34,008 bases of DNA from Sanguibacter suaedae (lineage in GTDB: Bacteria; Actinomycetota; Actinomycetes; Actinomycetales; Cellulomonadaceae): assembly GCF_016342785.1 (NCBI RefSeq), contig NZ_JAEINH010000002.1, forward strand, positions 1-34,008, given 5' to 3'. This document shows, one piece after another, positions 9,076-30,706 of the stretch (position 1 is its first letter; each line of letters starts with the position of its first letter). The position numbers and the translations under genes were made by a program. The notes beneath the pieces were generated by a model. It was given only the letters and a program-made list of their open reading frames with translations, had not been told where the DNA came from and made no database searches.

Positions 9076-9081
9076 TACGAT
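9076..9081 (+). promoter_or_regulatory. Candidate leaderless -10 element of the 9088 regulator gene
   Basis: TACGAT ends six bases before the ATG at 9088, where no Shine-Dalgarno sequence exists. The same cacTACGAT plus six bases plus ATG arrangement is found at the GntR gene (30695-30700). Confidence 0.5.
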
Positions 9082-9087
9082 GCCTGG

Positions 9088-10173: not shown

Positions 10174-10179
10174 TCCTGC

Positions 10180-14478: not shown

Positions 14479-15484
14479 CCTGACCGTCGACCGGCACGAC
14501 GCGCGGCTCGTCCCGGGGCGGGGCGAGGGCGAGCTCCGTCGCCATGACGCCGATGTCGGCGAGCGGCAGCCGGATGGTCGTGAGCGAGGGCACGATGTCA
14601 CGGAGCGTGAGGATGTCGTCGAACCCCGCGATGGCGACGTCGTCGGGCACGGACAGGCCTGCCGCCCGTGCGGCGGCCATGGCGCCGACGGCCATGACGT
14701 CGTTCACCGCGAACACGGCGTCCACCGGGCAGGTCCCGTCCGCCGAGCGTCCGAGGAGCGTCCGCATCCCCTCGAAGCCGCCGTCGCGCGTGAAGGGCCC
14801 GCGGACCACGTGGGCATCGTCGATCTCGACGCCCAGCCCGGCGAGGCCGTCGCGCAGGCCCTCGAAGCGGGCCTCGGCGGTGAGGTGGCCCTCTGGTCCG
14901 GCGAGCACGCCGAAGCGGCGGTAGCCGAGGGCGTGCAACCGGCTCGCGAGCTCACCGGTGGCTCGCTGGTTCTCGATGGTCACGGTGTCCACGCCGAGGA
15001 GAGGCTGCCCCACGGCCGCGACCCCGCCACCGCGGCTCCTGTACTCCTCGAGCGCCGACGAGAGCCGGGCGTTCGCCTCCTCGTCGGCGGTGCGGCCGCC
15101 CGCGAGGATGATGGCGCGGGCCCGCTGCCGTTGCATGAGCTCGACGAACGCGAGCTCCCGGTCCCCGTCCCGCTCGGTGCTCGCGAGGGTGACCACGAGC
15201 CCGGCGCGCTCCGCGGCCGACGTCACCCCCGAGGCGATGGTCGAGAAGTAGGGGTCGGCGATGTCGTGGACGATGAGCCCCAGGGCCGTGGTGCGCCCGC
15301 GGGCCATGGCCTGCGCGTTGGCGTCCGGCGAGTACCGGAGGCGACGCGCGGCGTCGAGCACCTTCTCGCGCAGGTCCGGACGGACCGTGCGGTTGGCGCT
15401 GCCGTTGATGGCTCGTGACGCCGTGGCGAGGGAGACTCCTGCTTCGCGGGCGACGTCGCTGAGGGTCACGGTCATAGGGGTCAT
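14444..15484 (-). CDS. LacI-family transcriptional regulator linked to glycerate kinase
   Basis: This 346-aa regulator has a LacI helix-turn-helix (VTLSDVAREAGVSLATASRAING, about 6-28), hinge (about 55-62) and sugar-binding-type sensor domain (LGLIVHDIADPYFSTIASGV to VAIAGFDDILTLRDIVPSLTTI). It starts only 12 bases after the glycerate kinase stop codon, so the two are likely co-transcribed and it may control that gene. ATG at 15484 and ATG at 15475 are both possible; AGGA lies a better distance from 15475. The 3' end overlaps the phosphatase gene by 35 bases on the opposite strand. It could also bind the GGANNGCGCTNNCC-type sites in the window, but nothing in the sequence proves this. Confidence 0.9.
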   Translation of the reverse strand: MTPMTVTLSDVAREAGVSLATASRAINGSANRTVRPDLREKVLDAARRLRYSPDANAQAMARGRTTALGLIVHDIADPYFSTIASGVTSAAERAGLVVTLASTERDGDRELAFVELMQRQRARAIILAGGRTADEEANARLSSALEEYRSRGGGVAAVGQPLLGVDTVTIENQRATGELASRLHALGYRRFGVLAGPEGHLTAEARFEGLRDGLAGLGVEIDDAHVVRGPFTRDGGFEGMRTLLGRSADGTCPVDAVFAVNDVMAVGAMAAARAAGLSVPDDVAIAGFDDILTLRDIVPSLTTIRLPLADIGVMATELALAPPRDEPRVVPVDGQVIVRDSTPRRS

Positions 15485-17360: not shown

Positions 17361-19526
17361 TCAGCGCACCGGGCCGTCGCGGCGGGACCGTGCCATGGCG
17401 CGGGCGAGCGACGCGGCGGCGTCCCGCGACAGGTACCCGTCGGCGACGGCCACGCGGTGCGCGCGCACGGCGGGCGTCCCGCGGGTGACGACGGTAGGGG
17501 AGTCCCACGCGATCGCGGACCCGAAGCCGGGGTACGACGCGACGCGCACCACCCACGGGTCGGTGGCGGCCTCGTCGCACGCGGGCTCGGCGACGAGCGT
17601 GAACGCCCCGCGTGCGGTGCGGGCGGACCACGCGAGCCACGGGGCGGTCGTCCCGTGCACGTCGTCCTCGCCCTCCGCCGCGGCGGTCCGGACCCGCACG
17701 TCGGTGCATGCGGGCAGGCGCCAGAAGAAGCCCCCGTACCCGCCGCCGGTGCGACCGTTGGACCCCGGGCTCCCGAGGGCCACGGCGTCGGTGCGGTCCG
17801 GGTCGACGCTCAGCGCCGACCGCAGCTCCAGGGCCCACGCGTCCGCGCGGACCCGCCACCAGCGCACGGACCGGCGCTCGCGCAGGAGCGGCACCCCGTC
17901 GTGGCCCGTCCAGGCGAGGTTCTCGACGAACCCGTCGTCCCCGCGCGACGCCCACCCGTCGTGCTCGATGCGTCCGTGGTCGTCGCGCCACACGTACCCG
18001 TGGTCGCGCACGTAGGTGCGCCCGCCCCAGAGGTTGTGACCGTCGACGTCCTGCACGCCGGGTGCGACGCCCACGTGCCACGTGTGGTCGGCGGGCGCGG
18101 AGTCGGTGACGACCACGCCGCCGAGGGTCCGGACGGGGTGCAGGTGCGGGCGGGGGGAGTCGGAGGGGCGGGCGCCGGACCCGTCGACGTACTCGGCGAC
18201 GGGGCGTCCCGCGACGTGCGCGACGGCGAGGACCTCGTGCTCGCGGGCCGGTGGCTCGACCGTCCACGGTGCGCCGAGCTCGGTGAACGTCCGGAGCTCG
18301 TGTGCCACCCGCTCGCACCACTCCGCGACGTCCGCGACCACGATGTGGGGGGTCCGGGGAGTGCCGGGCGGTGCGGGCTCGTCGGCCGGCCACGGCTCGG
18401 GGATCTCGGTGCGCAGGTGCTCGGGTGGGATCTCCCGGGGGTCCGGAGCGGCGCGGACCGCGTCGAGCACCCGCATGAACGCCCCCGTCTCCTCGACGGG
18501 GCACAGCAGGGGCGCCCCGGTGCGCACGTGGTCGACGAGGTTCGCGAGCAGGGGCGTCCGCCCGAGACGTTCCGTCGTCGGGGCGTCCGTGCCGTGGGTC
18601 ACCTCGAGGACGTCCTGCGTGTAGTACAGGGTCGCGGTGCCGAGCGTGCCGTGGACGACGACCCGGGGAGCCGTCTGCACGGACGCGCACAGCGTGAGGC
18701 CCAGGGCGACGGTGGTGCCGCGGCGGGTGCGCAGACGCACGCTCGAGGTGTCGTCCGACTCGATGCGGTTGGCGTGGAAGAGGTCCACGTCGATGTCGAG
18801 GACGTCGTCGACGCGCGTGGAGCCGTCCACGGCGAGCGCCGTGGCGACGGCGTGGGCGAGGGGGTTGGTGACGACCCCGTCGACGACGGGCGCACCGTCC
18901 AGGGTGCGGCGTCCGGCCCAGCGTGCGCGGGACCAGTACGCGTCGTCGCGCAGCCACGTGCCCACCGCGCCGATCCCGGTGACCTTGCCGAGGCTGCCGT
19001 CGGCGACCAGGGTGCGCAGGCGGGCGAGCGCGTCCGACCCGAGGGACTGGAAGCCGACCTGGCACGCGAGGCCCGACGCGTCCGCCGCGGCCAGGAGGCG
19101 ACGGAAGGACGCGAGGGACGGTGTCGGGGGCTTCTCGAGCAGGACGTGGCTGCCGGCGGCGAAGGCGAGCTCGGCGAGCTCGAGGTGGGTGTTGATGGGG
19201 GTGCAGATGATGGTCAGGTCGGGGGAGTGCACGGCGAAGAGGTCTTGCGCGGTGCGGAAGACCGCGTCGGGCCCGAGCTCGTCCTCGATACCGGGCGGCG
19301 GTGCGGGGTCGGCGACGGCGAGGAGTCGCACGGGTGGCGGTGCCGACGTCCCGACCGTCGAGGCGGCGAGCTCGCGGACGGCGCGCAGGTGGGAGCGGCC
19401 GTGGCCGCCTGCCCCCAGGAGCGCGACGGTGAGCGTCCGTCCCGGGTCCGCTGGGTCCCCGGGCCCCCCGGGCCCCGGGCTCGTCGTCATGGTTCCGCTC
19501 GGTCGTGTCGTGTCGGAGGTGTGCAC
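17361..19526 (-). CDS. Gfo/Idh/MocA oxidoreductase fused to a PmoA (DUF6807) domain
   Basis: This 721-aa two-part protein has an NAD-binding Gfo/Idh/MocA enzyme at residues 33-420 and a PmoA-family (DUF6807) domain from about 430 to the end. The first part has the Rossmann motif VALLGAGGHGRSH and EKP at 131-133. Its second catalytic motif is of the DGVVTNPLAHAV type (Asp216, Asn221, His225) rather than DxGxH. The second part carries the PmoA-like HPVRTLGGVVVTD and GVQDVDGHNLWGG stretches; despite the name this family is not methane monooxygenase and its role is unknown. The GTG at 19526 has GAGGAG eight bases upstream; ATG at 19490 is the alternative. It diverges from the ABC importer operon at 19676, suggesting joint control and a shared carbohydrate substrate. 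No signal peptide is seen. Confidence 0.88.
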   Translation of the reverse strand: MHTSDTTRPSGTMTTSPGPGGPGDPADPGRTLTVALLGAGGHGRSHLRAVRELAASTVGTSAPPPVRLLAVADPAPPPGIEDELGPDAVFRTAQDLFAVHSPDLTIICTPINTHLELAELAFAAGSHVLLEKPPTPSLASFRRLLAAADASGLACQVGFQSLGSDALARLRTLVADGSLGKVTGIGAVGTWLRDDAYWSRARWAGRRTLDGAPVVDGVVTNPLAHAVATALAVDGSTRVDDVLDIDVDLFHANRIESDDTSSVRLRTRRGTTVALGLTLCASVQTAPRVVVHGTLGTATLYYTQDVLEVTHGTDAPTTERLGRTPLLANLVDHVRTGAPLLCPVEETGAFMRVLDAVRAAPDPREIPPEHLRTEIPEPWPADEPAPPGTPRTPHIVVADVAEWCERVAHELRTFTELGAPWTVEPPAREHEVLAVAHVAGRPVAEYVDGSGARPSDSPRPHLHPVRTLGGVVVTDSAPADHTWHVGVAPGVQDVDGHNLWGGRTYVRDHGYVWRDDHGRIEHDGWASRGDDGFVENLAWTGHDGVPLLRERRSVRWWRVRADAWALELRSALSVDPDRTDAVALGSPGSNGRTGGGYGGFFWRLPACTDVRVRTAAAEGEDDVHGTTAPWLAWSARTARGAFTLVAEPACDEAATDPWVVRVASYPGFGSAIAWDSPTVVTRGTPAVRAHRVAVADGYLSRDAAASLARAMARSRRDGPVR

Positions 19527-19559
19527 CGGGCCGGCTCCTCGATGTGGTGGGTGTCGTCC

Positions 19560-19607
19560 TTGACAGGAGATGTCGTCATTGACATGTGTCGGATATCACT
19601 GTTACAA
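19560..19607 (+). promoter_or_regulatory. Probable promoter of the second ABC importer operon
   Basis: TTGACA (19579-19584) and TTACAA (19602-19607) are separated by exactly 17 bases, placing transcription start just before the palindrome at 19621. A second TTGACA (19560-19565) lies 19 bases upstream with no good -10. Both are part of GACA/TGTC inverted repeats, possibly another regulator site for the divergent genes. Confidence 0.6.
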
Positions 19608-19620
19608 ACTACTACATGGT

Positions 19621-19638
19621 TTGGAGAGCGCTCTCCAA
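19621..19638. promoter_or_regulatory. LacI-family operator of the second ABC importer operon
   Basis: TTGGAGAGCGCTCTCCAA is a perfect 18-bp palindrome with a central CG, of the GGAGCGCTCC class known for LacI-type sugar repressors such as CebR. It lies 13-30 bases after the -10 candidate and 38 bases before the ATG at 19676, a position suited to repression. Confidence 0.85.
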
Positions 19639-19675
19639 CCCCCCGGTCTGTCAACGAAGATTGCCGAGGCATCGA

Positions 19676-20626
19676 ATGTCCGCAGTAGCAGAGCTGCGCT
19701 CCACCACGAAGGGCACGGGCCGACGCGTCCGCCGAGGGCCCACGACCGCCTCGGAGAAGAGGGACGCCCGGGCGGCGATCTTCTTCCTCTCCCCCTGGGT
19801 CGTCGGGCTCCTGCTCATCACCGTCGGGCCCATCCTCGCGTCCCTCTACCTGTCGTTCACCGACTACGGGCTCCTCGCCGCACCCGAGTGGATCGGCCTC
19901 GAGAACTACCAGCGGATGATCGACGACCCCAGGCTGCACAACGCGCTCCTCGTGACCTTCCGGTACGTCTTCATCTCCGTACCGCTCCAGCTCGCGGCAG
20001 CCCTCGCCCTCGCGCTCTTCCTCGACCGGGGGGTCCGCGGCATCGCCCTCTACCGGTCCGCCTACTACCTGCCGTCCCTCCTCGGAGGGTCCGTCGCCGT
20101 CGCCATCCTCTGGCGCCAGGTCTTCGGCACCGACGGCCTCGTCAACCAGGCGCTCGCCGTCATCGGCATCGAGGGCCAGGGCTGGGTCTCCCACCCCGAC
20201 ACGGCGCTCGGCACCCTGATGATCCTCAACGTGTGGACCTTCGGGTCGCCCATGGTCATCTTCCTCGCCGGGCTGCGCCAGATCCCCGAGATGTACTACG
20301 AGGCCGCTTCCATCGACGGAGCCGGGAGGATGCGCCGCTTCTGGTCCATCACCATCCCGCTGCTCACGCCCATCATCTTCTTCAACCTCGTGCTCCAGGT
20401 CATCGGGGCGTTCCAGACGTTCACCCAGGCGTTCATCGTCTCCAGCGGCACCGGCGGTCCCGCCGACTCGACGCTGTTCTACACGCTGTACCTCTACCAG
20501 AAGGGGTTCGGCAGCCTGGACATGGGTTACGCGTCAGCCATGGCGTGGCTCCTGCTCGCCATCGTCGCCGGACTCACCGCCGTGAACTTCTTCGCCTCGA
20601 AGTATTGGGTTTTCTACAATGACTGA
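19676..20626 (+). CDS. Sugar ABC transporter permease, MalF type (second importer)
   Basis: This 316-aa permease opens the second importer operon. It has six membrane segments, beginning with IFFLSPWVVGLLLITVGP near residue 36, and the EAA loop YYEAASIDGAGRMRRFWSI in the last third. An open frame runs from 19586, but it would include the operator. The ATG at 19676 follows GAGG seven bases upstream and the palindrome at 19621. It overlaps the MalG-type gene by eight bases, so the two are translationally coupled. No ATPase is encoded nearby. Confidence 0.93.
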   Translation: MSAVAELRSTTKGTGRRVRRGPTTASEKRDARAAIFFLSPWVVGLLLITVGPILASLYLSFTDYGLLAAPEWIGLENYQRMIDDPRLHNALLVTFRYVFISVPLQLAAALALALFLDRGVRGIALYRSAYYLPSLLGGSVAVAILWRQVFGTDGLVNQALAVIGIEGQGWVSHPDTALGTLMILNVWTFGSPMVIFLAGLRQIPEMYYEAASIDGAGRMRRFWSITIPLLTPIIFFNLVLQVIGAFQTFTQAFIVSSGTGGPADSTLFYTLYLYQKGFGSLDMGYASAMAWLLLAIVAGLTAVNFFASKYWVFYND

Positions 20627-21542
20627 CTCACTGACCGTCGCCCCGACGCCCCCCGTCCACCACGACGACGACGCGAGGAGCACGCACCCCGCCGCCCGTC
20701 GTCCCTCCCCGTGGCGCCGCCGCCTGCGGGCCATCGGCAAGCACGCCCTGCTCATCGGGTTCGGGCTCCTCATGCTGTACCCGCTCCTGTGGCTGCTCGC
20801 GAGCTCCCTCAAGCCGACCTCGCTGATCTTCCGCGACCCGTCGCTCATCCCCGAGACCATCGACCTGAGCAACTACACGGGAGGGTGGAACGCGTTGTCC
20901 CACCCCTTCGGGCACTACATCCTCAACTCGGCCATCGTCGTCGCCGGCTCCCTCCTCGGGAACCTCGTGTCCTGCTCCATGGCCGCCTACGCGTTCGCCC
21001 GCCTGAACTTCCGTGGTCGCGGCTTCCTGTTCGCGATCATGCTCATGACGATCATGCTGCCCATCCACGTGGTGATCGTCCCGCAGTACATCCTGTTCTC
21101 CCAGCTGCAGTGGATCAACACGTTCCTGCCGCTCATCGTGCCCAAGCTCCTCGCCACGGACGCGTTCTTCATCTTCCTCATGGTGCAGTTCTTCCGAGGT
21201 ATACCCCGAGAGCTCGACGAGGCGGCCCGGCTCGACGGGTGCGGGCACATCCGGACCTTCTTCCGCATCATGCTGCCGCTGTCCGTGCCCGCCCTCGCGA
21301 CCACCGCGATCTTCACGTTCATCTGGACGTGGAACGACTTCTTCAGCCAGCTGATCTTCCTCACCAAGCCCGACATGTACACGGTGCCCGTCGCGCTGAA
21401 GACGTTCGTCGACTCCACCGGTCAGACCAGCTGGGGACCGCTCTTCGCGATGTCCATCGTGTCGCTCATCCCCATCTTCATCGTCTTCCTCCTCGGCCAG
21501 AAGTACCTCGTCAAGGGGATCGCCACCACCGGCATCAAGTAG
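20619..21542 (+). CDS. Sugar ABC transporter permease, MalG type (second importer)
   Basis: This 307-aa permease forms a pair with the preceding gene, overlapping it by eight bases. It has a Pro/His/Asp-rich N-terminus (about 1-38), six membrane segments and the EAA loop ELDEAARLDGCGHIRTFF. The C-terminus LVKGIATTGIK is typical of MalG-like proteins. The substrate is unknown. The binding protein follows after a 49-base gap, so this operon has the order permease-permease-binding protein. Confidence 0.93.
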   Translation: MTDSLTVAPTPPVHHDDDARSTHPAARRPSPWRRRLRAIGKHALLIGFGLLMLYPLLWLLASSLKPTSLIFRDPSLIPETIDLSNYTGGWNALSHPFGHYILNSAIVVAGSLLGNLVSCSMAAYAFARLNFRGRGFLFAIMLMTIMLPIHVVIVPQYILFSQLQWINTFLPLIVPKLLATDAFFIFLMVQFFRGIPRELDEAARLDGCGHIRTFFRIMLPLSVPALATTAIFTFIWTWNDFFSQLIFLTKPDMYTVPVALKTFVDSTGQTSWGPLFAMSIVSLIPIFIVFLLGQKYLVKGIATTGIK

Positions 21543-21591
21543 CCGCCCCACCTCACCGTCAGCACTGCCAAGGCACAAGCAAAGGAGCATG

Positions 21592-22977
21592 ATGTCTCAG
21601 CACCCCACCTCCGGCACCACCACGCGGAGTGCAGCCCCCACCGCCCGCCACGGGCGCTCCCGCCGCCGCGGCCTCGCCGCCACCGCGGGGATCGCCGTCA
21701 CCGGGTTCCTCCTCGCCGCGTGCGGCAGCGGGGACGGCGGTCTCGCTCCCGCTGACCGGCCGGCGGGCGAGGCGACCGCGGCCGAGGGCCCCGTCGAGCT
21801 CCGCTTCTCCTGGTGGGGGTCCGACACCCGTCACCAGCTCACCCAGGAGGTCATCGACCTCTTCGAGGCCGAGCACGAGAACATCACGATCGTCGCCGAC
21901 TATGCCAGCTGGGGCGACTACTGGGACAAGCTCTCCACGTCCGTCGCCGCCGGAGACACGCCCGACATCATGACCCAGGAGGAGCGGTACCTGCGCGAGT
22001 ACGCCAGCCGCGGTGTCATCCAGGACATGTCGGCGCTCGACGCCCTCGACCTGTCGGGCATCGACGAGGAGATCCTCGGGGCGGGGAACTTCGACGACGG
22101 CCAGTTCGGCGTCCCCACCGGCATCAACGCGTACGCCCTCGTGGCCGACCCGCAGATCTACGAGCAGGCGGGCGTCGAGATGCCGGACGACACCTCGTGG
22201 ACCTGGGACGACTACCTCCAGATCACCACCGAGATCGCGGCGAACACCCCCGACGGCGTCTACGGCGCCCAGGACTACGGGTTCAACGAGCCGGGCTTCG
22301 CGATCTTCGCCCGCCAGAAGGGCGAGGAGCTCTACACGCCCGAGGGCGAGCTCGGGTTCTCCGAGGAGACCCTCGCCGAGTGGTGGGAGCTCTCGCTCCA
22401 GCTCCAGGAGGCCGGTGCCACGCCGCCCGCGACCAAGAGCGTCGAGGTCGAGAACGGCGGACCCGAGATGTCACTCGTCGGCACCGGGCAGGGCGCCCAC
22501 TCGATGTTCTGGACCAACCAGCTCGAGGCCCTCACGAGCGCCGCGGGCCACGACCTCGAGCTCCTGCGTCACCCCGGCGAGGCGGACGGCGAGCGGACGG
22601 GCATGTACTTCAAGCCCTCCATGTACTACTCGATCTCCTCGACCACCGAGTACCCCGTCGAGGCCGCGATGTTCGTCGACTTCCTCCTCAACAGCACCGA
22701 GGCCGGCGAGCTCATCCTCTCCGACCGTGGGCTGCCCGCGAACACCGACGTCCGTGAGGCCGTCCGGGACAGCTTCACCGACGTCGACAAGCAGGCCGCG
22801 CAGTTCCTCGACGACCTCGGCCCCGTGATCGTCGACAGCCTCGCCACCCCGCCCGAGGGCTCCGGTGAGGTCGTGAACATCATCAAGCGCATCAACGAGC
22901 AGGTCCTCTTCGGGCAGATCACGCCGCAGGAGGCCGCGAGCCAGTTCATGGCCGAGGTCGAGGGCGCCATCGGCTGA
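21592..22977 (+). CDS. Extracellular sugar-binding lipoprotein (second importer)
   Basis: This 461-aa family 1 solute-binding protein has a long Arg-rich signal peptide ending in the lipobox LLAAC (Cys44), then VELRFSWWGSDTRHQ at the start of the first lobe. SRRRGL before the hydrophobic core resembles a twin-arginine motif but lacks its consensus. Two adjacent ATG codons exist. The second (21592) is four bases from AAAGGAG and is preferred over 21589, which is only one base away. It serves the two permeases just upstream. The two Gfo/Idh enzymes downstream presumably act on the imported compound. A very GC-rich structured stretch separates it from them. Confidence 0.93.
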   Translation: MSQHPTSGTTTRSAAPTARHGRSRRRGLAATAGIAVTGFLLAACGSGDGGLAPADRPAGEATAAEGPVELRFSWWGSDTRHQLTQEVIDLFEAEHENITIVADYASWGDYWDKLSTSVAAGDTPDIMTQEERYLREYASRGVIQDMSALDALDLSGIDEEILGAGNFDDGQFGVPTGINAYALVADPQIYEQAGVEMPDDTSWTWDDYLQITTEIAANTPDGVYGAQDYGFNEPGFAIFARQKGEELYTPEGELGFSEETLAEWWELSLQLQEAGATPPATKSVEVENGGPEMSLVGTGQGAHSMFWTNQLEALTSAAGHDLELLRHPGEADGERTGMYFKPSMYYSISSTTEYPVEAAMFVDFLLNSTEAGELILSDRGLPANTDVREAVRDSFTDVDKQAAQFLDDLGPVIVDSLATPPEGSGEVVNIIKRINEQVLFGQITPQEAASQFMAEVEGAIG

Positions 22978-23026
22978 CGCTCCCACCACCTGCGAGACCG
23001 CAGGACCAGCACGACCAGCACCACGC

Positions 23027-23115
23027 CGTCGGGGCCGCCCCCACCCCCCGGCCCCCCGCGGGGTGGGCCCACCCCCCCCACCCCCCCGCGGTGGGCCGGC
23101 CCCCCCGGGCCGCAC
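23027..23115. repeat. C/G-only low-complexity stretch with nested hairpins
   Basis: Runs of C (eight at 23072-23079, seven at 23081-23087) alternate with short G blocks. GGGGTGGGCCCACCCC (23060-23075) is a perfect palindrome, and CGGCCC (23097-23102) pairs with GGGCCG (23107-23112) around four Cs. It lies between the binding-protein gene and the tandem oxidoreductase genes and could trim or stabilise the message there. Homopolymer length errors are possible. Confidence 0.7.
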
Positions 23116-23182
23116 CGACGGCGGTTGCTGCCCGCCCCACCCCTCCCGACAGCCCACGCTGTCCCAGCAAGGAGCGACGACG

Positions 23183-24532
23183 ATGTCCTCTGGCGCGACA
23201 GGCATGATGCGGCGCTACGCCGTGATCGGCACCGGGCACCGTGCCCAGATGTACGTGGACTCGATGCTCGCCGACCACGCCGACGTGGCGGAGATCGTCG
23301 CCTGGTGCGAGCCCAACCCGGTCCGCACGGACTACTTCGACGACCTGGTGCGCGCGTCGGGCCGCACCTCGGTCCCCGTCCGGTACGCCCCGGACCAGAT
23401 CGAGCAGATGGTCGCCGAGCGGCTCGTCGACGCGGTGATCGTCACGAGCCCCGACCACACGCACGCCGAGGTCGCGACCCGTGCCATGCGTGCCGGCGCG
23501 GACGTGATCATCGAGAAGCCGCTCACCACGGACCTCGCGGGCAGCCGCCACTTCATCGAGGCCCTCGAGGACACGGGACGGTCCCTCGTCCTGACGTTCA
23601 ACTACCGGTACGCGCCACGCAACGCCGCCCTCAAGGACGTGGTGGCGTCGGGGGAGATCGGCGAGGTGACGTCCGTGCACTTCGAGTGGCTCCTCGACAC
23701 CATGCACGGCAGCGACTACTTCCGACGCTGGCACCGGGAGCGTGACCGTTCCGGCGGGCTCCTCGTCCACAACGCCTCCCACCACTTCGACCTCGTGAAC
23801 TGGTGGCTCGACGACTTCCCGTCACGCGTGTTCGCCAGCGGTGGCCTGCGCTTCTACGGCGACGAGAACGCCCGCGCGCGTGGGCTCGGCAAGCGCCCCG
23901 AGCGGGGCACGACGACGCCGCCCAGCCACGACCCCTTCGCGCTCGACCTCCGCGACGACCCGCGTCTCAAGGCCCTCTACCTCGACGCGGAGCACCACGA
24001 CGGGTACCTGCGGGACCGCGACCCCTTCGCGCCCGGGATCACCATCGAGGACAACATGTCCGTCCTCGTCGACTACACGCGGGGCGCGTCCCTCACGTAC
24101 TCCCTGAACACGCACAGCCCGTGGGAGGGGTACCGGGTGGGCATCAACGGCACCGAGGGGCGGGTGGAGCTCGACGTCGTGGAACGTGGGTCGCTCCTGC
24201 CGCGCCCCGACGGACGCCGTGACCTCGACGCGTCGAAGACGGGGCACGTCGACGCACCCGGCGAGCTGCGACCGCGGTCGCAGCGCATCCTCGTGCAGCG
24301 CCACTGGGAGGCGTCGCGCGAGGTCGAGATCACCGGTGGCGAGGGCGCCCACGGCGGGGGCGACGCGCAGATGCTCGCCGACCTGTTCCGCGGGCCGGCG
24401 CCCGACCCGCTCGGGCGCCCCGCCGGTTACAAGGACGGCCTGCGGTCCGTCGTCGTCGGCATCGCCGCCACGTCCTCCCTGCACATCGGGCTGCCCGTCC
24501 GCATCGACGACCTCGGGCTCGACCTCGCCTGA
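23183..24532 (+). CDS. Gfo/Idh/MocA family protein, first of a tandem pair
   Basis: This 449-aa cytoplasmic enzyme has an N-terminal Rossmann fold (YAVIGTGHRAQMY, 12-24), the EKP motif at 111-113 and the substrate-binding alpha/beta domain beyond about 140. The second catalytic motif reads GGLLVHNASHHFD (191-203): His196 stands where dehydrogenases of the family have Asp, while His200 aligns with the usual catalytic His. AAGGAG lies eight bases before the ATG. It shares long identical blocks with the next gene, showing a tandem duplication. Context (importer operon, divergent Gfo/Idh-PmoA fusion) suggests NAD-dependent processing of an imported glycoside or sugar. Whether it is a dehydrogenase, an epimerising enzyme or a GH109-like NAD-dependent glycosidase cannot be decided here. 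Confidence 0.88.
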   Translation: MSSGATGMMRRYAVIGTGHRAQMYVDSMLADHADVAEIVAWCEPNPVRTDYFDDLVRASGRTSVPVRYAPDQIEQMVAERLVDAVIVTSPDHTHAEVATRAMRAGADVIIEKPLTTDLAGSRHFIEALEDTGRSLVLTFNYRYAPRNAALKDVVASGEIGEVTSVHFEWLLDTMHGSDYFRRWHRERDRSGGLLVHNASHHFDLVNWWLDDFPSRVFASGGLRFYGDENARARGLGKRPERGTTTPPSHDPFALDLRDDPRLKALYLDAEHHDGYLRDRDPFAPGITIEDNMSVLVDYTRGASLTYSLNTHSPWEGYRVGINGTEGRVELDVVERGSLLPRPDGRRDLDASKTGHVDAPGELRPRSQRILVQRHWEASREVEITGGEGAHGGGDAQMLADLFRGPAPDPLGRPAGYKDGLRSVVVGIAATSSLHIGLPVRIDDLGLDLA

Positions 24533-24569
24533 GACCCGCCACGCACAGCCGACCGAGAGCGAGAGCACC

Positions 24570-26009
24570 ATGACACTGCCGGACAGCACTCCCGGCCCAG
24601 CCCACGCCGCCGACGACGCCGACGACGCCCAAGAGGCCCGGGTGCCGGCCTGCCGACGCTACGCGGTGGCCGGCCTGGGCAACCGTGCCGAGATGTACGT
24701 CGAGGCCGTCGCAGGAGCCCATGCCGACGTCGCCGAGCTCGTCGCCTGGTGCGAGCCCAACCCCGTGCGCGCCGCGTACTACGACGCGCGGGCCGCCGAG
24801 CTGGGCATCTCCACCGTGCCCCTGCCGCGCTACGACCCGGCCGACCTCGAGCGCATGGTCGCCGAGCAGCGGGTGGACGTCGTCATCGTCACCACTCCCG
24901 ACCACACCCACGCCGACGTCGCCGCGCGCGCCATGCGGGCCGGGGCGGACGTCGTCGTCGAGAAGCCGCTGACCACCGACCTCGCGGGGGCGCGGATCTT
25001 CGAGGAGGTGCAGACCGAGACGGGCCGCGACCTCACGGTGACGTTCAACTACCGGTACTCGCCGCGGAACTCCACGCTCAAGGAGGTGGTGGCGTCGGGC
25101 GAGATCGGCGAGGTGACGTCTGTGCACTTCGAGTGGGTGCTCGACACCCGGCACGGGGCGGACTACTTCCGCCGGTGGCACCGGCTCAAGGAGAACTCCG
25201 GCGGGCTGCTCGTCCACAAGTCGAGCCACCACTTCGACCTCGTCAACTGGTGGCTCGACGACCTCCCCACGCGCGTCTTCGCCAGCGGTGGCCTGCGCTT
25301 CTACGGGCCCGACGCGGCCGCCCGGCGCGGGCTGGGGGAGCGACCCGCGCGCGGCACGGGTGAGCATGCCGCGACCGACCCCTTCGCGCTCGACCTCCGT
25401 GACGACCCGCGGCTGCGCGACCTCTACCTCGAGGCTGAGGGGCACGACGGGTACCTGCGCGACCTCGACGTCTTCTCCGGGCCCATCACCATCGAGGACA
25501 ACCTCGCCGTGGTCGTCGACTACGAGCGCGGCGCGACGCTCACGTACTCGCTCAACGCCCACGGGCCCTGGGAGGGGTACACCGTCGCGGTCAACGGGAC
25601 CGCCGGTCGCGCGGAGCTCACCGTCGTGGAGCGCACCTCCGTCCCGGCGTTCCCCGGGGCGGGCGACGTCCTCGACGCGAGCGCCCACGAGGACAAGGGG
25701 TCCGTGTCGCGCGGGCCCGCCGTCGACGCCGGGCCGGGCGCGGCCCGCGTGCGCGGCAACCGTCTGGTGGTGCAGCAGCACTGGGGCGAGGCGCGGGAGG
25801 TGCCCGTCGTCGAGGGTGCCGGTGGGCACGGTGGGGGCGACGCGAAGCTCCTGGCCCACGTGTTCCGCGGCGTCACGGACGACCCGCTGGGCCTGCACGC
25901 GGGCCCGCTCGACGGGTTCCGGTCGCTCGCCGTCGGGATCGCCGCCAACCGGTCGTTGCGGTCCGGGACGTCGGAGCGGGTGGAGCACCTGGGGCTGCAG
26001 CTCCGCTGA
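24570..26009 (+). CDS. Gfo/Idh/MocA family protein, second of a tandem pair
   Basis: This 479-aa protein is a paralogue of the preceding one and has an extra acidic N-terminal tail (about 28 aa) before the Rossmann motif YAVAGLGNRAEMY. EKP is at 131-133. The motif GGLLVHKSSHHFD (211-223) again has His216 in place of the usual Asp, with His220 conserved. Shared blocks include LVAWCEPNPVR, ASGEIGEVTSVHFEW, VFASGGLRFYG and DPFALDLRDDPRL. The ATG has only a weak GAGAG ribosome site, and the 37-base gap from the first copy indicates co-transcription. The C-terminal third differs most, which may mean a different substrate or a heteromeric complex. A bidirectional hairpin at 26015-26050 ends the operon. 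Confidence 0.88.
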   Translation: MTLPDSTPGPAHAADDADDAQEARVPACRRYAVAGLGNRAEMYVEAVAGAHADVAELVAWCEPNPVRAAYYDARAAELGISTVPLPRYDPADLERMVAEQRVDVVIVTTPDHTHADVAARAMRAGADVVVEKPLTTDLAGARIFEEVQTETGRDLTVTFNYRYSPRNSTLKEVVASGEIGEVTSVHFEWVLDTRHGADYFRRWHRLKENSGGLLVHKSSHHFDLVNWWLDDLPTRVFASGGLRFYGPDAAARRGLGERPARGTGEHAATDPFALDLRDDPRLRDLYLEAEGHDGYLRDLDVFSGPITIEDNLAVVVDYERGATLTYSLNAHGPWEGYTVAVNGTAGRAELTVVERTSVPAFPGAGDVLDASAHEDKGSVSRGPAVDAGPGAARVRGNRLVVQQHWGEAREVPVVEGAGGHGGGDAKLLAHVFRGVTDDPLGLHAGPLDGFRSLAVGIAANRSLRSGTSERVEHLGLQLR

Positions 26010-26014
26010 ACCGC

Positions 26015-26050
26015 CCGGGCGCTGCCGGGCGCCGCCCGGCAGCTGCCCGG
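26015..26050. terminator. Bidirectional terminator hairpin between convergent genes
   Basis: CCGGGC+GCTGCCGGGC (26015-26030) pairs with GCCCGGCAGC+GCCCGG (26034-26050) with a single bulged T and a 3-base loop, giving 16 base pairs. It starts six bases after one stop codon and ends ten bases before the convergent gene's stop. Confidence 0.85.
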
Positions 26051-26060
26051 ACGGCGCCCG

Positions 26061-26744
26061 TCAGGCGACCGGGTAGCCCATGGCGTGGAGCTCCGGCAGC
26101 ACCGTCGCCGGGTCGGCGCCGAGCGCACGGACGATCTCGGCGGTCGCCGGGGCGTGCGCGAAGAAGTGCTCGACGACGGTCCGGTCGACGGCGCGCTCGA
26201 AGTAGTCGCGGGCGTGGTCCACGGACGTGTCGGGGTTGCCGTCGAGGCCGCTGAACAACCAGCGCGCCCCGTCGACGTCGAGGTGCTGCTCGTCCCACGT
26301 GCGCGGGTACTCCACGGGGGCGACCGTCCAGGTGTCGGCGTCCGCGAGCCGCCACAGGAGCACGGTGACGAGCGGGACGCCGTCGAGGACGTACGGCGCC
26401 GCACCCAGCGTGTCCGCGAGCCGGGCGGGGACGGACTCGAGGAGCCCGGGGAACGGTGCGGGCGGGTCCTGCGTGAACGGGCTGAGCGGCGCCTCGTGGT
26501 CGAACCCGCGCACGAGGACGCCCGCGGGCGTGAAGAGGATCGCGTACGTGTCACCGGCACCGTTGTCCATGGACGCCATGGCCTCGCCGTCGGCGTACGC
26601 GGCGTCGTAGGAGTACAGCCGGTACTCGCGTTCGGGGCAGAGCACCGCGTCGAGGGCCGCCATGGACACCGACCACGCCCGGAGGTTCGCGGGTCCGGGG
26701 AGGCGTGACGCGAGCAGCGCCGCGCTCGATGGTGCGTCGATCAT
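26061..26744 (-). CDS. Hypothetical protein, 227 aa
   Basis: I do not recognise this soluble protein as a named family. It has no signal peptide or membrane segment. Notable stretches are ASMDNGAGDTYAILFTPAGVLVRGFDHE (about 57-84), a central WRLADADTW region, and a C-terminal part, EHFFAHAPATAEIVRALGADPATVLPELHAMGY, that could be a helical pair. The pattern of a Gly-rich strand followed by RGFDHE looks like a conserved core rather than random sequence. The ATG at 26744 has no Shine-Dalgarno site. CAGACT ends seven bases upstream, a possible leaderless -10. Hairpins on both sides isolate it from neighbouring operons, so it is probably a single-gene unit unrelated to them. Confidence 0.7.
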   Translation of the reverse strand: MIDAPSSAALLASRLPGPANLRAWSVSMAALDAVLCPEREYRLYSYDAAYADGEAMASMDNGAGDTYAILFTPAGVLVRGFDHEAPLSPFTQDPPAPFPGLLESVPARLADTLGAAPYVLDGVPLVTVLLWRLADADTWTVAPVEYPRTWDEQHLDVDGARWLFSGLDGNPDTSVDHARDYFERAVDRTVVEHFFAHAPATAEIVRALGADPATVLPELHAMGYPVA

Positions 26745-26826: not shown

Positions 26827-27849
26827 TCAGCCGAGGCGGAGCATGACCTTGCTGCTGCCCGTCGAGCGGTCGGCGGCCACGGACATGGCCTCCTCGGCGG
26901 CGTCGAGGTCGAACGTGTGCGTCATGAGGGGGTCGACGTCGAGACCGTCGGCGAGCGCCACGAGCGCGTCGTCCACCTCCTCGGAGAAGCGGTAGGAGCC
27001 GATCCAGGTGAGCTCGCGGGTGACGAGGTCGCCGAGGGTCACGGGCACGGCCGTGCCCGGGAGGTTCCCGACCTGGACGATCGTGCCGCCCTTGGCAGTG
27101 GCTCGCAGGACCGCGGCGAGGGCGGCCGCGGCACCGGAGGCCTCGAAGACGAGCTCGACGTCCTGCGGGAGGTCGGCGGACGTGAGGTCGACCGTCTCGT
27201 CCGCGCCCATGGCGTCTGCGACGGCGAGCGACGACCGCACGACGTCCGCCGCGACGACGTGCGCGGCTCCCGCGTGCTTCGCGGCGGCGACCACGAGGGC
27301 GCCGATCGGGCCGGTGCCGTTGACGAGCACCGTGCGACCGGTGAGGTCGCCCGCGCGCCCGACCGCGTGGAGGGCGACGGCGAGCGGTTCGGCGAGGGCG
27401 CCGCGCCGGGTGCTCACGCCGTCGGGCAGCGGACGCACCTGGCCCGCGCGCACCGCGCGGAGCTCGCTGAAGCCCCCGTCGGTGTGCGGGTCGAAGGCGG
27501 CGGACCCGAAGTACCGAACGTGCGGGTAGAGGTTGGTGCGGCCGGCGAGCCGCTCGGGCATGCGCCCGTCCCCGACGAGCTGGGCGGGCTGGAACGTCAC
27601 GGGCTGCCCGACGTCCACACCGGTCACGCCGCTGCCGAGGCCCACGACCCGGCCTGCCACCTCGTGCCCGAGGACCATGGGGTGCTTGAGCTCGGCGGTG
27701 CCGGAGCGGCCGTGACGCCAGTAGGCGAGGTCGGACCCGCAGATCCCGCCCCACTCCATGGCGACGAGGACCTCCCCCTCGCGGGGGGCGGGATCGGGCA
27801 GCTCGTCGACCCGCAGGTCTCCGGCGCCGTGGACGACGACGGCCCTCAT
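26827..27849 (-). CDS. L-idonate 5-dehydrogenase-like medium-chain dehydrogenase lacking the structural zinc site
   Basis: This 340-aa MDR-superfamily enzyme resembles IdnD/RspB-type dehydrogenases that interconvert L-idonate or L-gulonate with a 5-keto acid using NAD(P). Shared features are GGICGSDL, HPMVLGHEV, VRYFGSAAFDPHTDGGF and RTNLYPH. Catalytic zinc ligands Cys37, His62 and Glu63 and the AEP motif (Glu154) are kept, as is the nucleotide site NGTGPIG (177-183). The loop that normally binds structural zinc with four Cys is at about 87-108. Here it reads PAQLVGDGRMPERLAGRTNLY, with V, G, P and Y in the Cys positions and two extra residues. The ATG overlaps the MHS transporter gene by four bases. 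It is the last gene of the GntR-controlled operon. Confidence 0.88.
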   Translation of the reverse strand: MRAVVVHGAGDLRVDELPDPAPREGEVLVAMEWGGICGSDLAYWRHGRSGTAELKHPMVLGHEVAGRVVGLGSGVTGVDVGQPVTFQPAQLVGDGRMPERLAGRTNLYPHVRYFGSAAFDPHTDGGFSELRAVRAGQVRPLPDGVSTRRGALAEPLAVALHAVGRAGDLTGRTVLVNGTGPIGALVVAAAKHAGAAHVVAADVVRSSLAVADAMGADETVDLTSADLPQDVELVFEASGAAAALAAVLRATAKGGTIVQVGNLPGTAVPVTLGDLVTRELTWIGSYRFSEEVDDALVALADGLDVDPLMTHTFDLDAAEEAMSVAADRSTGSSKVMLRLG

Positions 27850-29252
27850 ACCGCGTCCTCGAGCCGGACGAGGTCGCGGCCCCGGACCTCGGGGGAGACG
27901 ACCGCGGACACGAGCGTGATCGCCGAGTAGGCGACGAGCATCGCGGCGATCGGCCACCAGGAGCCGGTCCACGCCGTGAGCGACGCGGCCAGGAGCGGGC
28001 CGATCGCGGTGGCGAGGATGCCGCCGATCTCCTTGGCGAGGGCGAGCTGCGTGAAGCGGGTGCGGGCACCGAAGAGCTCGGCCATCGTCACGCTCTCGAG
28101 CGAGAACAGGCCGAGGACGGCGAGGTTGTGCAGGAGGATCATCGACAGCGTGACCGCGACCGTGCTGCCCTCGGAGACGAGGTGCATGAGCGGGAAGGCG
28201 AGGATCCCCGACACGACCGTGAGGGCCATGTAGACGGGGCGGCGGCCGACGCGGTCGCTGACGAGGCCGACGAGGGGGACGGTGGCGAAGCCGACGGCCG
28301 AGCTGATGAGCAGGGCGTTCGTCGCGATGCTCCGGTCGAGCAGCAGCGTCGTGGCGAGGTAGCCGACGAGGAACGTCTGGATGAGGCCGGAGTTGCCGGC
28401 CTGGCCGAAGCGCAGGCCGAGGGCGATGAAGAACGCCTTGCCCTTGCGCTGCTTCACTGCGGCGGCGAGGACGTCCGAGCCGCTCGCCTTCGAGGGCGTC
28501 GCAGCGGCGGCCTCGAGCTTCTCACGGCTGATGGCGACGCCCTCCTCGTCGAGGTCGGCGCGGTTCTCGAAGACCGGGCTCTCCTTGAGGTGGGTCCGGA
28601 TCCACAGGGCGAAGAGCATGAGGAAGAAGCTCAGGAGGAACGGCAGGCGCCAGCCCCAGGAGATGAGCTGGTCCTCGGAGAGCACCGCGATGAGGATCGC
28701 CCACAGGCCGGTCGCGGCGAGCGTGCCGGTGTTCGTCCCGAGGCTCACGAGCGACGCGATGACACCGCGGCGCTTGACCGGGGCGTACTCGGCGAGCATC
28801 GTCGTGGCCCCCGCGATCTCGGCGCCGGCACCGAAGCCCTGGACGAGGCGCAGGACGACGAGCAGCGCGGGTGCGGCGATGCCGATCTGCGCGTAGGTCG
28901 GCAGGACGCCGATGAGCGTGGTCGACGCGCCCATGAGGGCGATGGTGATGAACAGGACGCGCTTGCGCCCGATCCGGTCACCCATGCGGCCGAAGTACAC
29001 GGCTCCCACGAGCCGAGCGACGTAGCCGACACCGTACGTGCCCATGGCGGCGATGAGACCGATCGCCGGGCTGACGTCGGGGAAGAAGATGTCGTTGAAG
29101 ACGATCGCTGCCGCGAGGGAGTACAGCTGGAAGTCCATGAACTCCATGGCGGTGCCGAGCCAGCCCGAGACGGCGGCCTTCTTGAGGTCGCTCGTGCTCC
29201 GGGTGGCGGCCGCCGCGGGCGGCGTCGCGGTCGACGGGTCGTGCTGCGTCAT
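27846..29252 (-). CDS. MFS transporter of the MHS (metabolite:H+ symporter) family
   Basis: This 468-aa inner-membrane protein has 12 predicted helices and MHS/MFS signatures: GDRIGRKR in the loop after helix 2 (91-98) and RLVQGFGAGAEIAGAT in helix 4 (135-150). It would import an organic or sugar acid with protons. AAAGGAG lies six bases before the ATG. It sits between the mannonate dehydratase-family gene (upstream) and the idonate dehydrogenase-like gene (4-base overlap downstream), so the substrate is probably a hexonate such as L-idonate, L-gulonate, D-mannonate or D-gluconate. An insertion of charged residues lies in the central loop (about 228-260). Confidence 0.9.
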   Translation of the reverse strand: MTQHDPSTATPPAAAATRSTSDLKKAAVSGWLGTAMEFMDFQLYSLAAAIVFNDIFFPDVSPAIGLIAAMGTYGVGYVARLVGAVYFGRMGDRIGRKRVLFITIALMGASTTLIGVLPTYAQIGIAAPALLVVLRLVQGFGAGAEIAGATTMLAEYAPVKRRGVIASLVSLGTNTGTLAATGLWAILIAVLSEDQLISWGWRLPFLLSFFLMLFALWIRTHLKESPVFENRADLDEEGVAISREKLEAAAATPSKASGSDVLAAAVKQRKGKAFFIALGLRFGQAGNSGLIQTFLVGYLATTLLLDRSIATNALLISSAVGFATVPLVGLVSDRVGRRPVYMALTVVSGILAFPLMHLVSEGSTVAVTLSMILLHNLAVLGLFSLESVTMAELFGARTRFTQLALAKEIGGILATAIGPLLAASLTAWTGSWWPIAAMLVAYSAITLVSAVVSPEVRGRDLVRLEDAV

Positions 29253-29298
29253 CGTGTGCTCCTTTGCCCCGCTGTCGCGGAACGATGCTGCGCGCTGG

Positions 29299-29318
29299 CC
29301 CCGCGGTGCTCCGCGGGG
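29299..29318. other. Intercistronic hairpin between the dehydratase and transporter genes
   Basis: CCCCGCGG (29299-29306) pairs perfectly with CCGCGGGG (29311-29318) around TGCT. It lies 46 bases after the dehydratase stop and 46 bases before the transporter start, so it could reduce read-through or protect the upstream message. Confidence 0.6.
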
Positions 29319-29364
29319 GTGGTCCGGGTGGTCGGTCGGTGGTGGTGCGGCGGTGCCGTGCGGG

Positions 29365-30573
29365 TCACCAGTCGTGGACGGAGCCGTCGAGGCGGCGTGC
29401 GACGGGCAGGTACCGGGGGTCGTAGGGGAAGCGCTCGGCGGCCTTCTCGTCGTACTCGACGCCCAGGCCGGGCTCCTCGCTCGGGTTGAGCATCCCGTCC
29501 GAGAACGTCACGCCGCTGCGGAACACCTCCATGGTCTCGGGCGCGTGCTCCATGTACTCCTGGATGCCGAAGTTGGGCACGGTGAGGTCGAGGTGCACGG
29601 CGGCGGCGAGCGTCACGGGCGAGAGGTCGGTGGCGCCGTGGGAGCCCGTGCGCACCTGGTACAGGGCGGCGAGGTCGAAGATGCGGCGCAGGTGGGTGAT
29701 GCCGCCGGCGTGGACGACGGTGGTGCGGACGTAGTCGATGAGCTGCTCGGTGATGAGCTGCTTGACGTCCCAGATGCTGTTGAGCACCTCGCCGACGGCG
29801 ATCGGCGTGGTCGTGTGCTGGCGGATGAGGCGGTACGCCTCCTGGTTCTCGGCCGGGGTGGGGTCCTCCATCCACAGGAGGCGGACGTCCTCGACGCTCT
29901 TGCCGAACGACGCGGCCTCGATGGGGGTGAGGCGGTGGTGGACGTCGTGCAGGAGGTGGAAGTCGAAGCCGAAGCGGTCGCGCACGGCCTCGAGGTACGT
30001 CGGGGCGTAGCGCAGGTAGGCCTCGGTGGACCAGGGCTGCTCGTCGGGCAGCGACGTGGCGGCGGGCTCGTAGACGGCGCCCTTGCGCACGCCGTAGCTG
30101 CCGGCGATGCCGGGCACGGCGGCCTGTGCGCGCACGGCGTGGTAGCCGCTCTCCCGGAACCTCGCCACGTCGTCGAGGAGGGACTCGGTGTCGGTCCCGC
30201 TGGCGTGGCAGTACACGAGGACGCCGTCGCGCGAGCGGCCGCCGAGGAGCTGGTAGACGGGCAGGCCCGCGACCTTGCCCTTGATGTCCCACAGGGCCGT
30301 GTCGACGGCGGAGATCGCGGTCATGGTGACGGGGCCGCGGCGCCAGTAGACGCCCTTGTAGAGGTACTGCCACATGTCCTCGATGCGGGCGGGGTCCTTG
30401 CCGACGAGGAGGGGGGCGACGTGGTCGCGCAGGTAGCTGGCGACGGCGAGCTCGCGGCCGTTGAGGGTGGCGTCCCCGAGGCCGGTCACGCCGTCGGAGG
30501 TGGTGACCCGGAGGGTGACGAAGTTCCGTCCCGGCCCGGCGACGAAGACCTCGACGCGTTCGATGGTGCTCAT
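29365..30573 (-). CDS. Mannonate dehydratase-family (ManD/RspA) enolase-superfamily enzyme
   Basis: This 402-aa protein belongs to the ManD subgroup of the enolase superfamily, which removes water from D-mannonate (or, in some members, D-gluconate) to give 2-keto-3-deoxygluconate. The metal ligands are Asp210, Glu236 (WMEDP) and Glu262 (VGE). His212 (in DVHH) and Tyr160 are the expected acid/base residues, and His312 lies in GSHGATD. Length and residue spacing match the family closely. Many ManD proteins are weak enzymes with other physiological roles, so D-mannonate activity is a prediction. The ATG at 30573 has AGGAG eight bases upstream. It is the first gene of the sugar-acid operon, divergent from the GntR gene, with an inverted repeat in between. 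Confidence 0.92.
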
Positions 30574-30624
30574 GGTCCTGCTCCTGTCGGACGGCAACGG
30601 TGGCGTCAGCACCGCATCGCTGCG

Positions 30625-30639
30625 ATACAACACTTGTAT
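30625..30639. promoter_or_regulatory. Probable GntR operator in the divergent promoter region
   Basis: ATACAA-CAC-TTGTAT is a perfect inverted repeat with a 3-base spacer, in the style of FadR-subfamily operators (TTGTA/TACAA half sites). It lies 52-66 bases before the dehydratase start and 68-82 bases before the GntR start, so it can serve both. Confidence 0.75.
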
Positions 30640-30694
30640 GTAAGCGCGTGGATGGTAGATCCGTCAAGCCCCGGACGCGAGGGACCAAGGTCAC

Positions 30695-30700
30695 TACGAT
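30695..30700 (+). promoter_or_regulatory. Candidate leaderless -10 element of the GntR gene
   Basis: TACGAT ends six bases before the ATG at 30707, which has no Shine-Dalgarno sequence. The cacTACGAT context is identical to that of the LacI gene at 9088. Confidence 0.5.
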
Positions 30701-30706
30701 GGACGC

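Follow-up and report, generated by a model that had tools for sequence, protein, structure and literature searches.

A probable LacI-controlled locus of Sanguibacter suaedae, with a YesO-type binding protein, Gfo/Idh proteins and DUF6807, suggests uptake and processing of uronate-ended oligosaccharides

Rhamnogalacturonan fragments are imported in Bacillus subtilis by YesOPQ (PMC7596534, PMC5730181), and the contacts of its binding protein YesO with unsaturated galacturonate-rhamnose-galactose have been described residue by residue (PMC7596534). SqgA, of glycoside hydrolase (GH) family 188, uses catalytic Lys107, Tyr136 and His193, binds the sulfonate of its substrate through Arg166 and Lys172, and contacts O4 of the gluco-configured sugar through Glu189 (PMC10755693); for the N-acetylgalactosaminidases of GH109, which depend on nicotinamide adenine dinucleotide (NAD+), the acid/base histidine has been reported in a GGHGG loop (a title cited in PMC10755693). 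Gfo/Idh/MocA-type (Gfo/Idh) dehydrogenases are also paired with non-hydrolytic enzymes in the oxidation-elimination-hydration-reduction pathways for levoglucosan (PMC7676230) and of BT_2158/BT_2159. Here we describe a locus of Sanguibacter suaedae that resembles each of these systems in part, within a window of 34,008 nucleotides (contig NZ_JAEINH010000002.1, positions 1 to 34,008, to which all coordinates refer unless another locus or contig is named). A gene for a Gfo/Idh protein fused to DUF6807 diverges there from genes for two permeases, a solute-binding protein (SBP) and two further Gfo/Idh proteins, GfoA and GfoB. With moderate confidence, we propose a LacI-repressed locus for the uptake and processing of a small uronate-ended oligosaccharide, likeliest a pectin galacturonide, which would be opened by NAD-dependent GfoA and GfoB, with the Gfo half of the fusion (GfoF) and DUF6807 acting as a pair. 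Such a galacturonide would come from rhamnogalacturonan or homogalacturonan.

An earlier note on this DNA had listed the divergent fusion, the permeases, the lipoprotein, the tandem Gfo/Idh genes, a palindrome and a far-end hairpin; all are present in or just beyond 17361-26009, as judged from open reading frame calls with computational starts and from Pfam matches. Its observation is confirmed and its interpretation partly supported: import followed by NAD-dependent handling by several Gfo/Idh proteins is still the best reading. It had left the substrate open between glycosides and cyclitols, a choice we do not retain because the SBP pocket and the neighbourhoods of many relatives indicate a uronate-ended fragment.

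The pocket evidence comes from the lipoprotein (21589-22977, plus strand), a YesO-family SBP whose best match in the PDB is YesO itself (5z6b, E = 1.2e-64, residues 60-455), followed by 4r6k, 4ovj and 2uvh. Nine of the eleven YesO residues that contact galacturonate are identical in the SBP (Trp20, Arg25, Trp52, Asn127, Asn254, Gln255, Lys284, Ser286 and Met287; YesO numbering), and the other two are changed (Asp75 to Glu, Tyr252 to Trp). None of the ten residues that contact only rhamnose or galactose is identical, while Trp52 and Gln255, which also contact rhamnose in YesO, are kept. The SBP may thus work like YesO at the uronate end; because the galacturonate residues are kept and the rhamnose and galactose residues lost, the pocket speaks for a ligand that would end in a uronate and carry other neighbouring sugars than that of YesO.

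To follow these positions in relatives we used two sets of loci. The first (L069-L108) comprises 40 stretches, none longer than 20 kb, of which 35 surround GfoF hits outside the window and 5 surround relatives of GfoA and GfoB without GfoF; the second (L109-L188) holds the best 80 of 567 confirmed DUF6807 candidates, picked for likeness to the DUF6807 of the window and so not random. Among SBPs of the same cluster at GfoF loci, Trp20, Arg25, Asn127 and Asn254, together with Trp252, occur in 32 of 32 and Lys284 in 31 of 32; in the second set, Trp20, Arg25, Asn127, Asn254 and Lys284 occur together in 59 of 81 SBPs. Four control SBPs outside the cluster match the window pattern at no more than 3 of 11 positions each, and the two other SBPs of the window at 3 and 1 of 11. 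A point against tying the pocket to the block is that Trp20, Arg25, Asn127, Trp252 and Asn254 are also found in three of four cluster SBPs from loci lacking GfoF (these three have Gln at 284, and the fourth lacks the five-residue set), so the pocket marks the SBP family as much as the block.

GfoA (23183-24532, plus strand; ATG start with AGGAG upstream, or start 23204 according to our own codon-usage gene caller) and its paralogue GfoB (about 24570-26009, plus strand; identified by Pfam and alignment, 64% identical) lie in tandem and are about 450 amino acids each; we refer to their group as GfoAB. A profile of 17 GfoAB sequences had GH188 SqgA as its best PDB match (E = 3e-24). In a Foldseek search with an AlphaFold2 model of GfoA (predicted local distance difference test, pLDDT, 89.9; predicted template-modelling score, pTM, 0.89), 458 chains reached E <= 0.001, and ranks 1-8 were all GH188 (E = 6e-27 to 6e-24, target TM 0.76-0.80, 20-22% identity); the model is longer than the matched chains (442 versus 339-367 residues). 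An NAD-binding Rossmann fold is present, and GfoA Lys105, Tyr134 and His193 align with the catalytic Lys107, Tyr136 and His193 of SqgA. Both sulfonate ligands are lost: Arg166 is replaced by Leu163 (Val in the consensus) and Lys172 by Gly169. We therefore rejected the identification of GfoAB as a sulfoquinovosidase. A plain inositol 2-dehydrogenase was likewise rejected (95 bits against a cut-off of 355). This pattern suits an NAD-dependent glycosidase whose sugar bears a different acidic group at C6 and, taken with the SBP pocket, suggests a hexuronide as the substrate.

The earlier note had also pointed to GH109. A G[GSA]HGG[GS] loop like that of GH109, with its proposed acid/base histidine, is present in 77 of 81 GfoAB proteins longer than 400 amino acids (GAHGGG in GfoA, within GAHGGGD), compared with a G.HGG motif in 1 of 38 GfoF proteins, and the catalytic residues are GH188-like. 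Sequence likeness to the GH109 structure 2ixa is limited to GfoA residues 11-163 (E = 4e-10), however, and GH109 chains were absent from the Foldseek top 50. Several details weigh against a glycosidase. The SqgA Glu189 position is His189 in GfoAB. The part assigned to His383 depends on spacing only (28 versus 26 residues to a DG motif), and a C-terminal profile aligned it with SqgA His321 in weak pieces only. Nor does the fold alone fix the function of GfoAB, since at rank 9 of the Foldseek matches stands a plain reductase, 1,5-anhydrofructose reductase, whose target TM (0.83) exceeds that of the GH188 chains.

This last match favours a different role, in which GfoA and GfoB would simply dehydrogenate or epimerize free uronates or aldonates with NAD, standing in for UxaB or uronate dehydrogenase, and an unlinked hydrolase would cut the glycoside. 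Most characterised Gfo/Idh proteins are dehydrogenases, UxaB was called in just 5 of 36 GfoF loci, and the window genome (99.59% complete) holds no UxaC, no UxaA/GarD (PF04295) and no uronate dehydrogenase (Udh) of the Pseudarthrobacter type, an absence that also counts against our own proposal. Yet the nearest folds by E-value are glycosidases, the GGHGG-type loop separates GfoAB from GfoF, and in several relatives (L129 and L113 among them) GfoAB accompanies an oxidative uronate operon that looks complete and would need no further dehydrogenase. In L129, from Pseudarthrobacter C4D7, GfoAB stands in a row with a Udh-like protein, with KdgD (397 bits to NCBIfam subfamily PRK03620, over its cut-off), with an MR/MLE protein (228 bits to its best match, L-talarate/galactarate dehydratase, which is below cut-off) and with an aldehyde dehydrogenase that stays below cut-off for each of the 25 families shown; the Udh label is our own, the NCBIfam matches of this protein being weak. 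The Udh query used across the 99 genomes described below matched strongly in its source, G083, as well as in G096 and G080, and gave weak matches in four other genomes. In L105, GfoAB is accompanied by a tagaturonate reductase (433 bits, cut-off 359), a rhamnulokinase-like kinase (366 bits, cut-off 528) and a gene of the UxaC cluster. We consider the dehydrogenase role unlikely.

The fusion (17361-19490, minus strand, ATG start) encodes 709 amino acids, with PF01408 and PF22725 inside residues 21-286 and PF14100 (DUF6807) at residues 425-696 (E = 6.4e-59; 200.2 bits against a gathering cut-off of 27). Across 19 aligned Gfo halves, Lys120 (in an EKP motif) and Asn209 are invariant, and Asp204 and His213 are kept in at least 90%. 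The DUF6807 domain (17391-18266, minus strand) was modelled with high confidence (pLDDT 95.1, pTM 0.92) and has a predicted supersandwich-like fold. Eleven residues (R39, H43, D60, H61, H64, W80, E130, R172, R183, R241 and D276) are invariant in 21 aligned domains drawn from Gfo-fused, free and LacI-fused copies, and each of them is retained by at least 90% of the 45 second-set domains. Fold matches include heparan sulfate lyase, heparinase III, dermatan sulfate epimerase, alginate lyase, the YeaD mutarotase, YidC and GH65-type proteins, which presumably share a galactose-mutarotase-like supersandwich domain. These matches are weak, a point against the enzymatic reading: the best has E = 5e-5, five reach E <= 0.001, and query TM is 0.27-0.44 in the top 20. 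PmoA is an older name of PF14100; neither Pfam nor the 50 listed fold matches linked it to methane oxygenases.

From the invariant residues and the fold matches we predict that DUF6807 is an enzyme. It may instead be a non-catalytic ligand-binding domain, similar to a carbohydrate-binding module or a sensor, whose task for GfoF or LacI would be to position or sense the same sugar, and two observations agree with this: the domain is fused to LacI regulators at 19 loci, and its fold matches include YidC, a membrane insertase. We regard this as a serious but less likely alternative, since invariant His43, Asp60, His61, His64, Glu130 and Asp276 with four arginines, shared by 21 domains in three architectures, in our judgement exceed what binding needs; free-standing copies exist, and the matches include lyases, an epimerase and mutarotases. 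The LacI regulators with a C-terminal DUF6807 (cluster C7; for example L086, 5737-7815) keep the invariant residues in all eight proteins aligned, and in several loci their stop codon overlaps the start of GfoF. A more speculative extension of the enzymatic reading, which we put forward tentatively, is that GfoF and DUF6807 are two halves of a non-hydrolytic uronide-cleaving machine, where GfoF would make a 3-keto-uronide that DUF6807, by descent a lyase/mutarotase fold, would eliminate or hydrate, and that the same catalytic domain has been grafted onto LacI regulators of other actinobacteria, which would then chemically process their own inducer. The Gfo/Idh dehydrogenases of the levoglucosan and BT_2158/BT_2159 pathways have TIM-barrel or DUF1080 proteins as partners, unlike the DUF6807 of this locus, and the proteins described here miss the corresponding NCBIfam cut-offs (22-62 bits against 650-750).

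To survey how widely these genes travel together, we searched 99 genomes, the window's own and its relatives, with the fusion (GfoF, E <= 1e-60) and with GfoA (GfoAB, E <= 1e-40). GfoF was found in 35 genomes, GfoAB in 44 and both in 34 (Fisher P = 2e-16, uncorrected for kinship), so the rare co-occurrence that would have spoken against the earlier note was not seen; at 25 of 36 GfoF loci, GfoAB lay within 15 kb. These locus counts omit seven rows with DUF6807 only and one weak row (G072:C18, 35% identity), and genes in L069-L108, L109-L188 and L202-L221 were called with our own codon-usage caller. DUF6807 was fused to or adjoined GfoF at 33 of the 36 loci, the window included: 6 encode the GfoF-DUF6807 fusion, 8 a free DUF6807 only, and 19 a LacI-DUF6807 fusion, accompanied in L092 by a free copy as well. 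The remaining three (L078, L082 and L103) had no DUF6807. The earlier note had coupled DUF6807 to a Gfo protein; that account is incomplete, as the domain is joined to LacI regulators too. The tandem GfoA-GfoB pair, treated there as a unit, is a local duplication: adjacent copies occur in just 4 of 30 GfoAB loci, one copy being truncated, and we rejected the pair as a conserved unit. Elsewhere in the same genome (C1:342119-343447) lies a third GfoAB paralogue, which shares 64% identity with GfoA.

A second search, of an even draw of 296 genomes from the class (DUF6807 at E <= 1e-15, GfoF at E <= 1e-50), found DUF6807 in 63 genomes, GfoF in 60 and both in 57. DUF6807 lay on the same strand within 500 bp of GfoF for 43 of 62 GfoF hits and within 4 kb for another three. 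On the other side of the balance, 16 of the 62 GfoF hits, nine of them scoring below 215 bits, had no same-strand DUF6807 within 15 kb, and 60 of 103 DUF6807 matches had no GfoF within 500 bp. Twenty of these 60 were inspected (L202-L221): a more distant Gfo/Idh gene directly adjoins DUF6807 in ten and lies one gene away in L212, and nine (L203, L204, L205, L209, L210, L215, L217, L218 and L219) have no Gfo within one gene, although L204 and L217 carry a GfoF-like gene elsewhere in the stretch and L218 is a LacI-DUF6807 locus. Gfo-DUF6807 pairing is thus common and not universal. One of the twenty, L202, is a second Gfo and DUF6807 gene pair of the window genome (15868-18062, equal to C4:82435-84629); it adjoins cupin-like and esterase-like genes and diverges from a GH51-like gene, all named by eye.

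Among the 80 loci of the second set, GfoF and DUF6807 were fused in 62, a free DUF6807 stood beside GfoF in 9 and without it in 4, and none was called in 5 (L133, L138, L140, L142 and L185) despite the search match, so these counts are lower bounds. The two sets overlap, L109 and L069 being one contig and L129 and L070 another. The nearest named DUF6807 locus to that of the window, within the best 80 of 567 candidates, is from Sanguibacter suarezii NBRC 16159. One record, L124, is titled Sporosarcina beigongshangi REN13 and is a contig of 67% G+C; the draw from its class and the class of the window have genomes in common, and the name looks wrong or the record contaminated.

Gene neighbourhoods in relatives point to uronates. 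A gene of the UxaA/GarD superfamily (375 bits to the galactarate dehydratase model, cut-off 731) occurs in 23 of the 36 loci with GfoF; counting all five uronate gene families, 25 of the 36 have at least one member. In the 80 DUF6807 loci we found GfoAB in 52, KdgD in 40, a Udh-like gene in 39, an MR/MLE dehydratase-like gene in 37 and a KGSADH-like gene in 33. Pectin appears more directly in a few: Pfam Pectate_lyase_4 was found in L175 and L086, the Streptomyces locus L175 combining GfoF and DUF6807 with the pectate lyase, a GH43 (Pfam) and, by eye, a pectin methylesterase, and rhamnose genes (by eye) adjoin GfoF-DUF6807 in L156. An M24-peptidase-like protein (c43; L129 10834-11946 and 44 other loci, making 45 of the 80) is commonly encoded 3' of GfoF-DUF6807 in loci of the oxidative pathway. 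Against a uronate substrate, all five families went uncalled in 11 of the 36 loci with GfoF and in 10 of the 30 with GfoAB (the window belongs to both groups), and the core of the window block contains no uronate gene. GH88/105 hydrolases (PF07470) were found in 9 of 35 genomes with GfoF and 13 of 64 without. This too tells against our proposal; as the absence of PF07470 does not track GfoF, we rejected the replacement of these hydrolases as what drives the system.

Nor does the block stand alone: on its upstream side are two GH42 genes and a glycerate kinase, and on its downstream side is a mannonate dehydratase. The GH42 beta-galactosidase genes flank an ABC (ATP-binding cassette) sugar transporter and a LacI regulator in a separate galactoside locus (3208-12243). 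Downstream, 26827-31417 holds an L-idonate-5-dehydrogenase-like gene, a major facilitator superfamily transporter, a D-mannonate dehydratase (29365-30573; NCBIfam, 705 bits, over its cut-off of 550) and a GntR regulator; it resembles a hexonate/hexuronate locus in its own right and could act as a uronate sink, the dehydratase and the idonate-dehydrogenase-like gene (below cut-off) being 0.8-4.6 kb from the block. D-mannonate dehydratase belongs to the glucuronate branch, and this gene, like the two GH42 genes of the window, GH42 in 26 of the 80 loci and a GH10-like gene seen by eye in L069, would suit a glucuronide from glucuronoxylan or arabinogalactan in place of a galacturonide. The nearby GH42 genes and the GH10-like gene beside S. 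suarezii GfoB thus tell against our choice of substrate. That gene follows GfoB, a ThuA-like gene and another Gfo in L069 (14449-17422, by eye), where the window differs. The homologous YesO pocket, on the other hand, binds unsaturated galacturonate; UxaA/GarD-like genes, tagaturonate reductase and some rhamnose-like and pectate-lyase neighbours point to pectin, and Glu189 of SqgA, the O4 contact for the gluco configuration, is His in GfoAB. A glucuronide is to our minds a minority prospect, rather unlikely, and we retain the galacturonide.

The block is probably under LacI control. An 18-bp palindrome, TTGGAGAGCGCTCTCCAA, lies in the divergent gap at 19621-19638 and is the sole exact copy in the window; it is a putative LacI-type operator. 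We scanned 11 related loci for it and found it exact and in the same gap in L069, with four mismatches, again in the divergent gap, in L073, L074, L076, L095 and L097, and with five in L087; L078 has a five-mismatch site located elsewhere, and L092, L099 and L101 gave none. By chance, a five-mismatch site is expected about once per 34 kb, and sites with four mismatches or fewer appeared in 0 of 20 shuffles. The likely regulator, a probable repressor with Pfam LacI and Peripla_BP_3 domains, is encoded at 14444-15484 (minus strand), outside the coordinates given in the earlier note, and shares 52-70% identity with LacI proteins near ABC genes in L073, L074, L076, L078, L087, L097 and L101. A palindrome in the promoter gap and an orthologous LacI nearby, as in LacI-regulated operons, are both found here.

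The permeases overlap by 8 bp: permease 1 (19676-20626, plus strand) is of UgpA type and permease 2 (20619-21542, plus strand) of UgpE/GlcU type (PF00528 in both; the named types are below cut-off). The block contains no ATPase gene; no search for one elsewhere was made. A simple scan found no sigma-70 match in 19400-26200 and no T-run terminator at the GC-rich hairpin 3' of GfoB (26011-26054), whose folding energy is -44.2 kcal/mol, compared with -33.9 +/- 3.2 in shuffled sequences (z -3.3). The 205-bp spacer between SBP and GfoA (22978-23182) carries long C-runs (about 23030-23110) and is unusual within an operon.

Following this logic, the YesO-type SBP would hold a terminal, possibly unsaturated, uronate, and the two permeases would import the fragment. 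GfoA and GfoB, with bound NAD+, would oxidize the uronide at C3, eliminate the aglycone, add water and reduce the product back, so that the net outcome would be glycoside cleavage and a free uronate; such a course has been proposed for GH109 and GH188. GfoF, as a dehydrogenase, and DUF6807 would form a matched pair that takes the same intermediate or the one after it, with DUF6807 performing proton chemistry, either as a lyase or hydratase on a 3-keto-uronide or as an epimerase or mutarotase. In many relatives the uronate would then enter steps of the UxaC-UxaB-UxaA type, or alternatively a route through Udh-like, galactarate-dehydratase-like, KdgD and semialdehyde dehydrogenase proteins.

With YesOPQ the block shares the SBP family, two permeases and the lack of an ATPase gene. 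The rhamnogalacturonan I genes of B. subtilis also include a GH42 (YesZ) and a Gfo/Idh protein (YteT). The window block differs in the rhamnose and galactose contacts and has three Gfo/Idh proteins and DUF6807 instead of a GH88/105 hydrolase, PF07470 being absent from the window genome. GfoAB and SqgA are alike in fold, catalytic residues and, as we infer, an acidic 6-substituent. An ordinary catabolic locus already known under a different name would agree with the clearly YesO-like SBP and with the textbook routes in relatives. We hold this to be improbable: none of GfoF, GfoA and GfoB reached an NCBIfam equivalog cut-off, and the open-licence literature, in the parts consulted, names DUF6807 in a single paper, in a remark on the numbering of DUFs. 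The open-licence literature searched, which leaves subscription papers outside its scope, contained no characterised enzyme of this architecture with an assigned substrate, and nothing joining PmoA, Gfo/Idh, uronate, rhamnogalacturonan and LacI. Open-licence papers on Gfo-type 3-keto-glycoside chemistry, and those that treat GH109 together with galacturonic acid, contained in the parts consulted nothing on this system, and 'Gfo' was absent from the consulted parts of a paper on a Paenarthrobacter pectin genome (PMC12844168).

For DUF6807, a family of unknown function, the locus proposes uronate-ended pectic fragments as a class of substrate that can be tested and shows Gfo/Idh proteins as a frequent partner. 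The GfoAB pattern suggests that NAD-dependent glycoside cleavage, known for N-acetylgalactosamine and sulfoquinovose, may extend to pectic uronides, acidic sugars that are plentiful in plants. The LacI-DUF6807 fusion, for its part, poses the unusual question of why a transcription factor would carry an apparently complete sugar-modifying active site.

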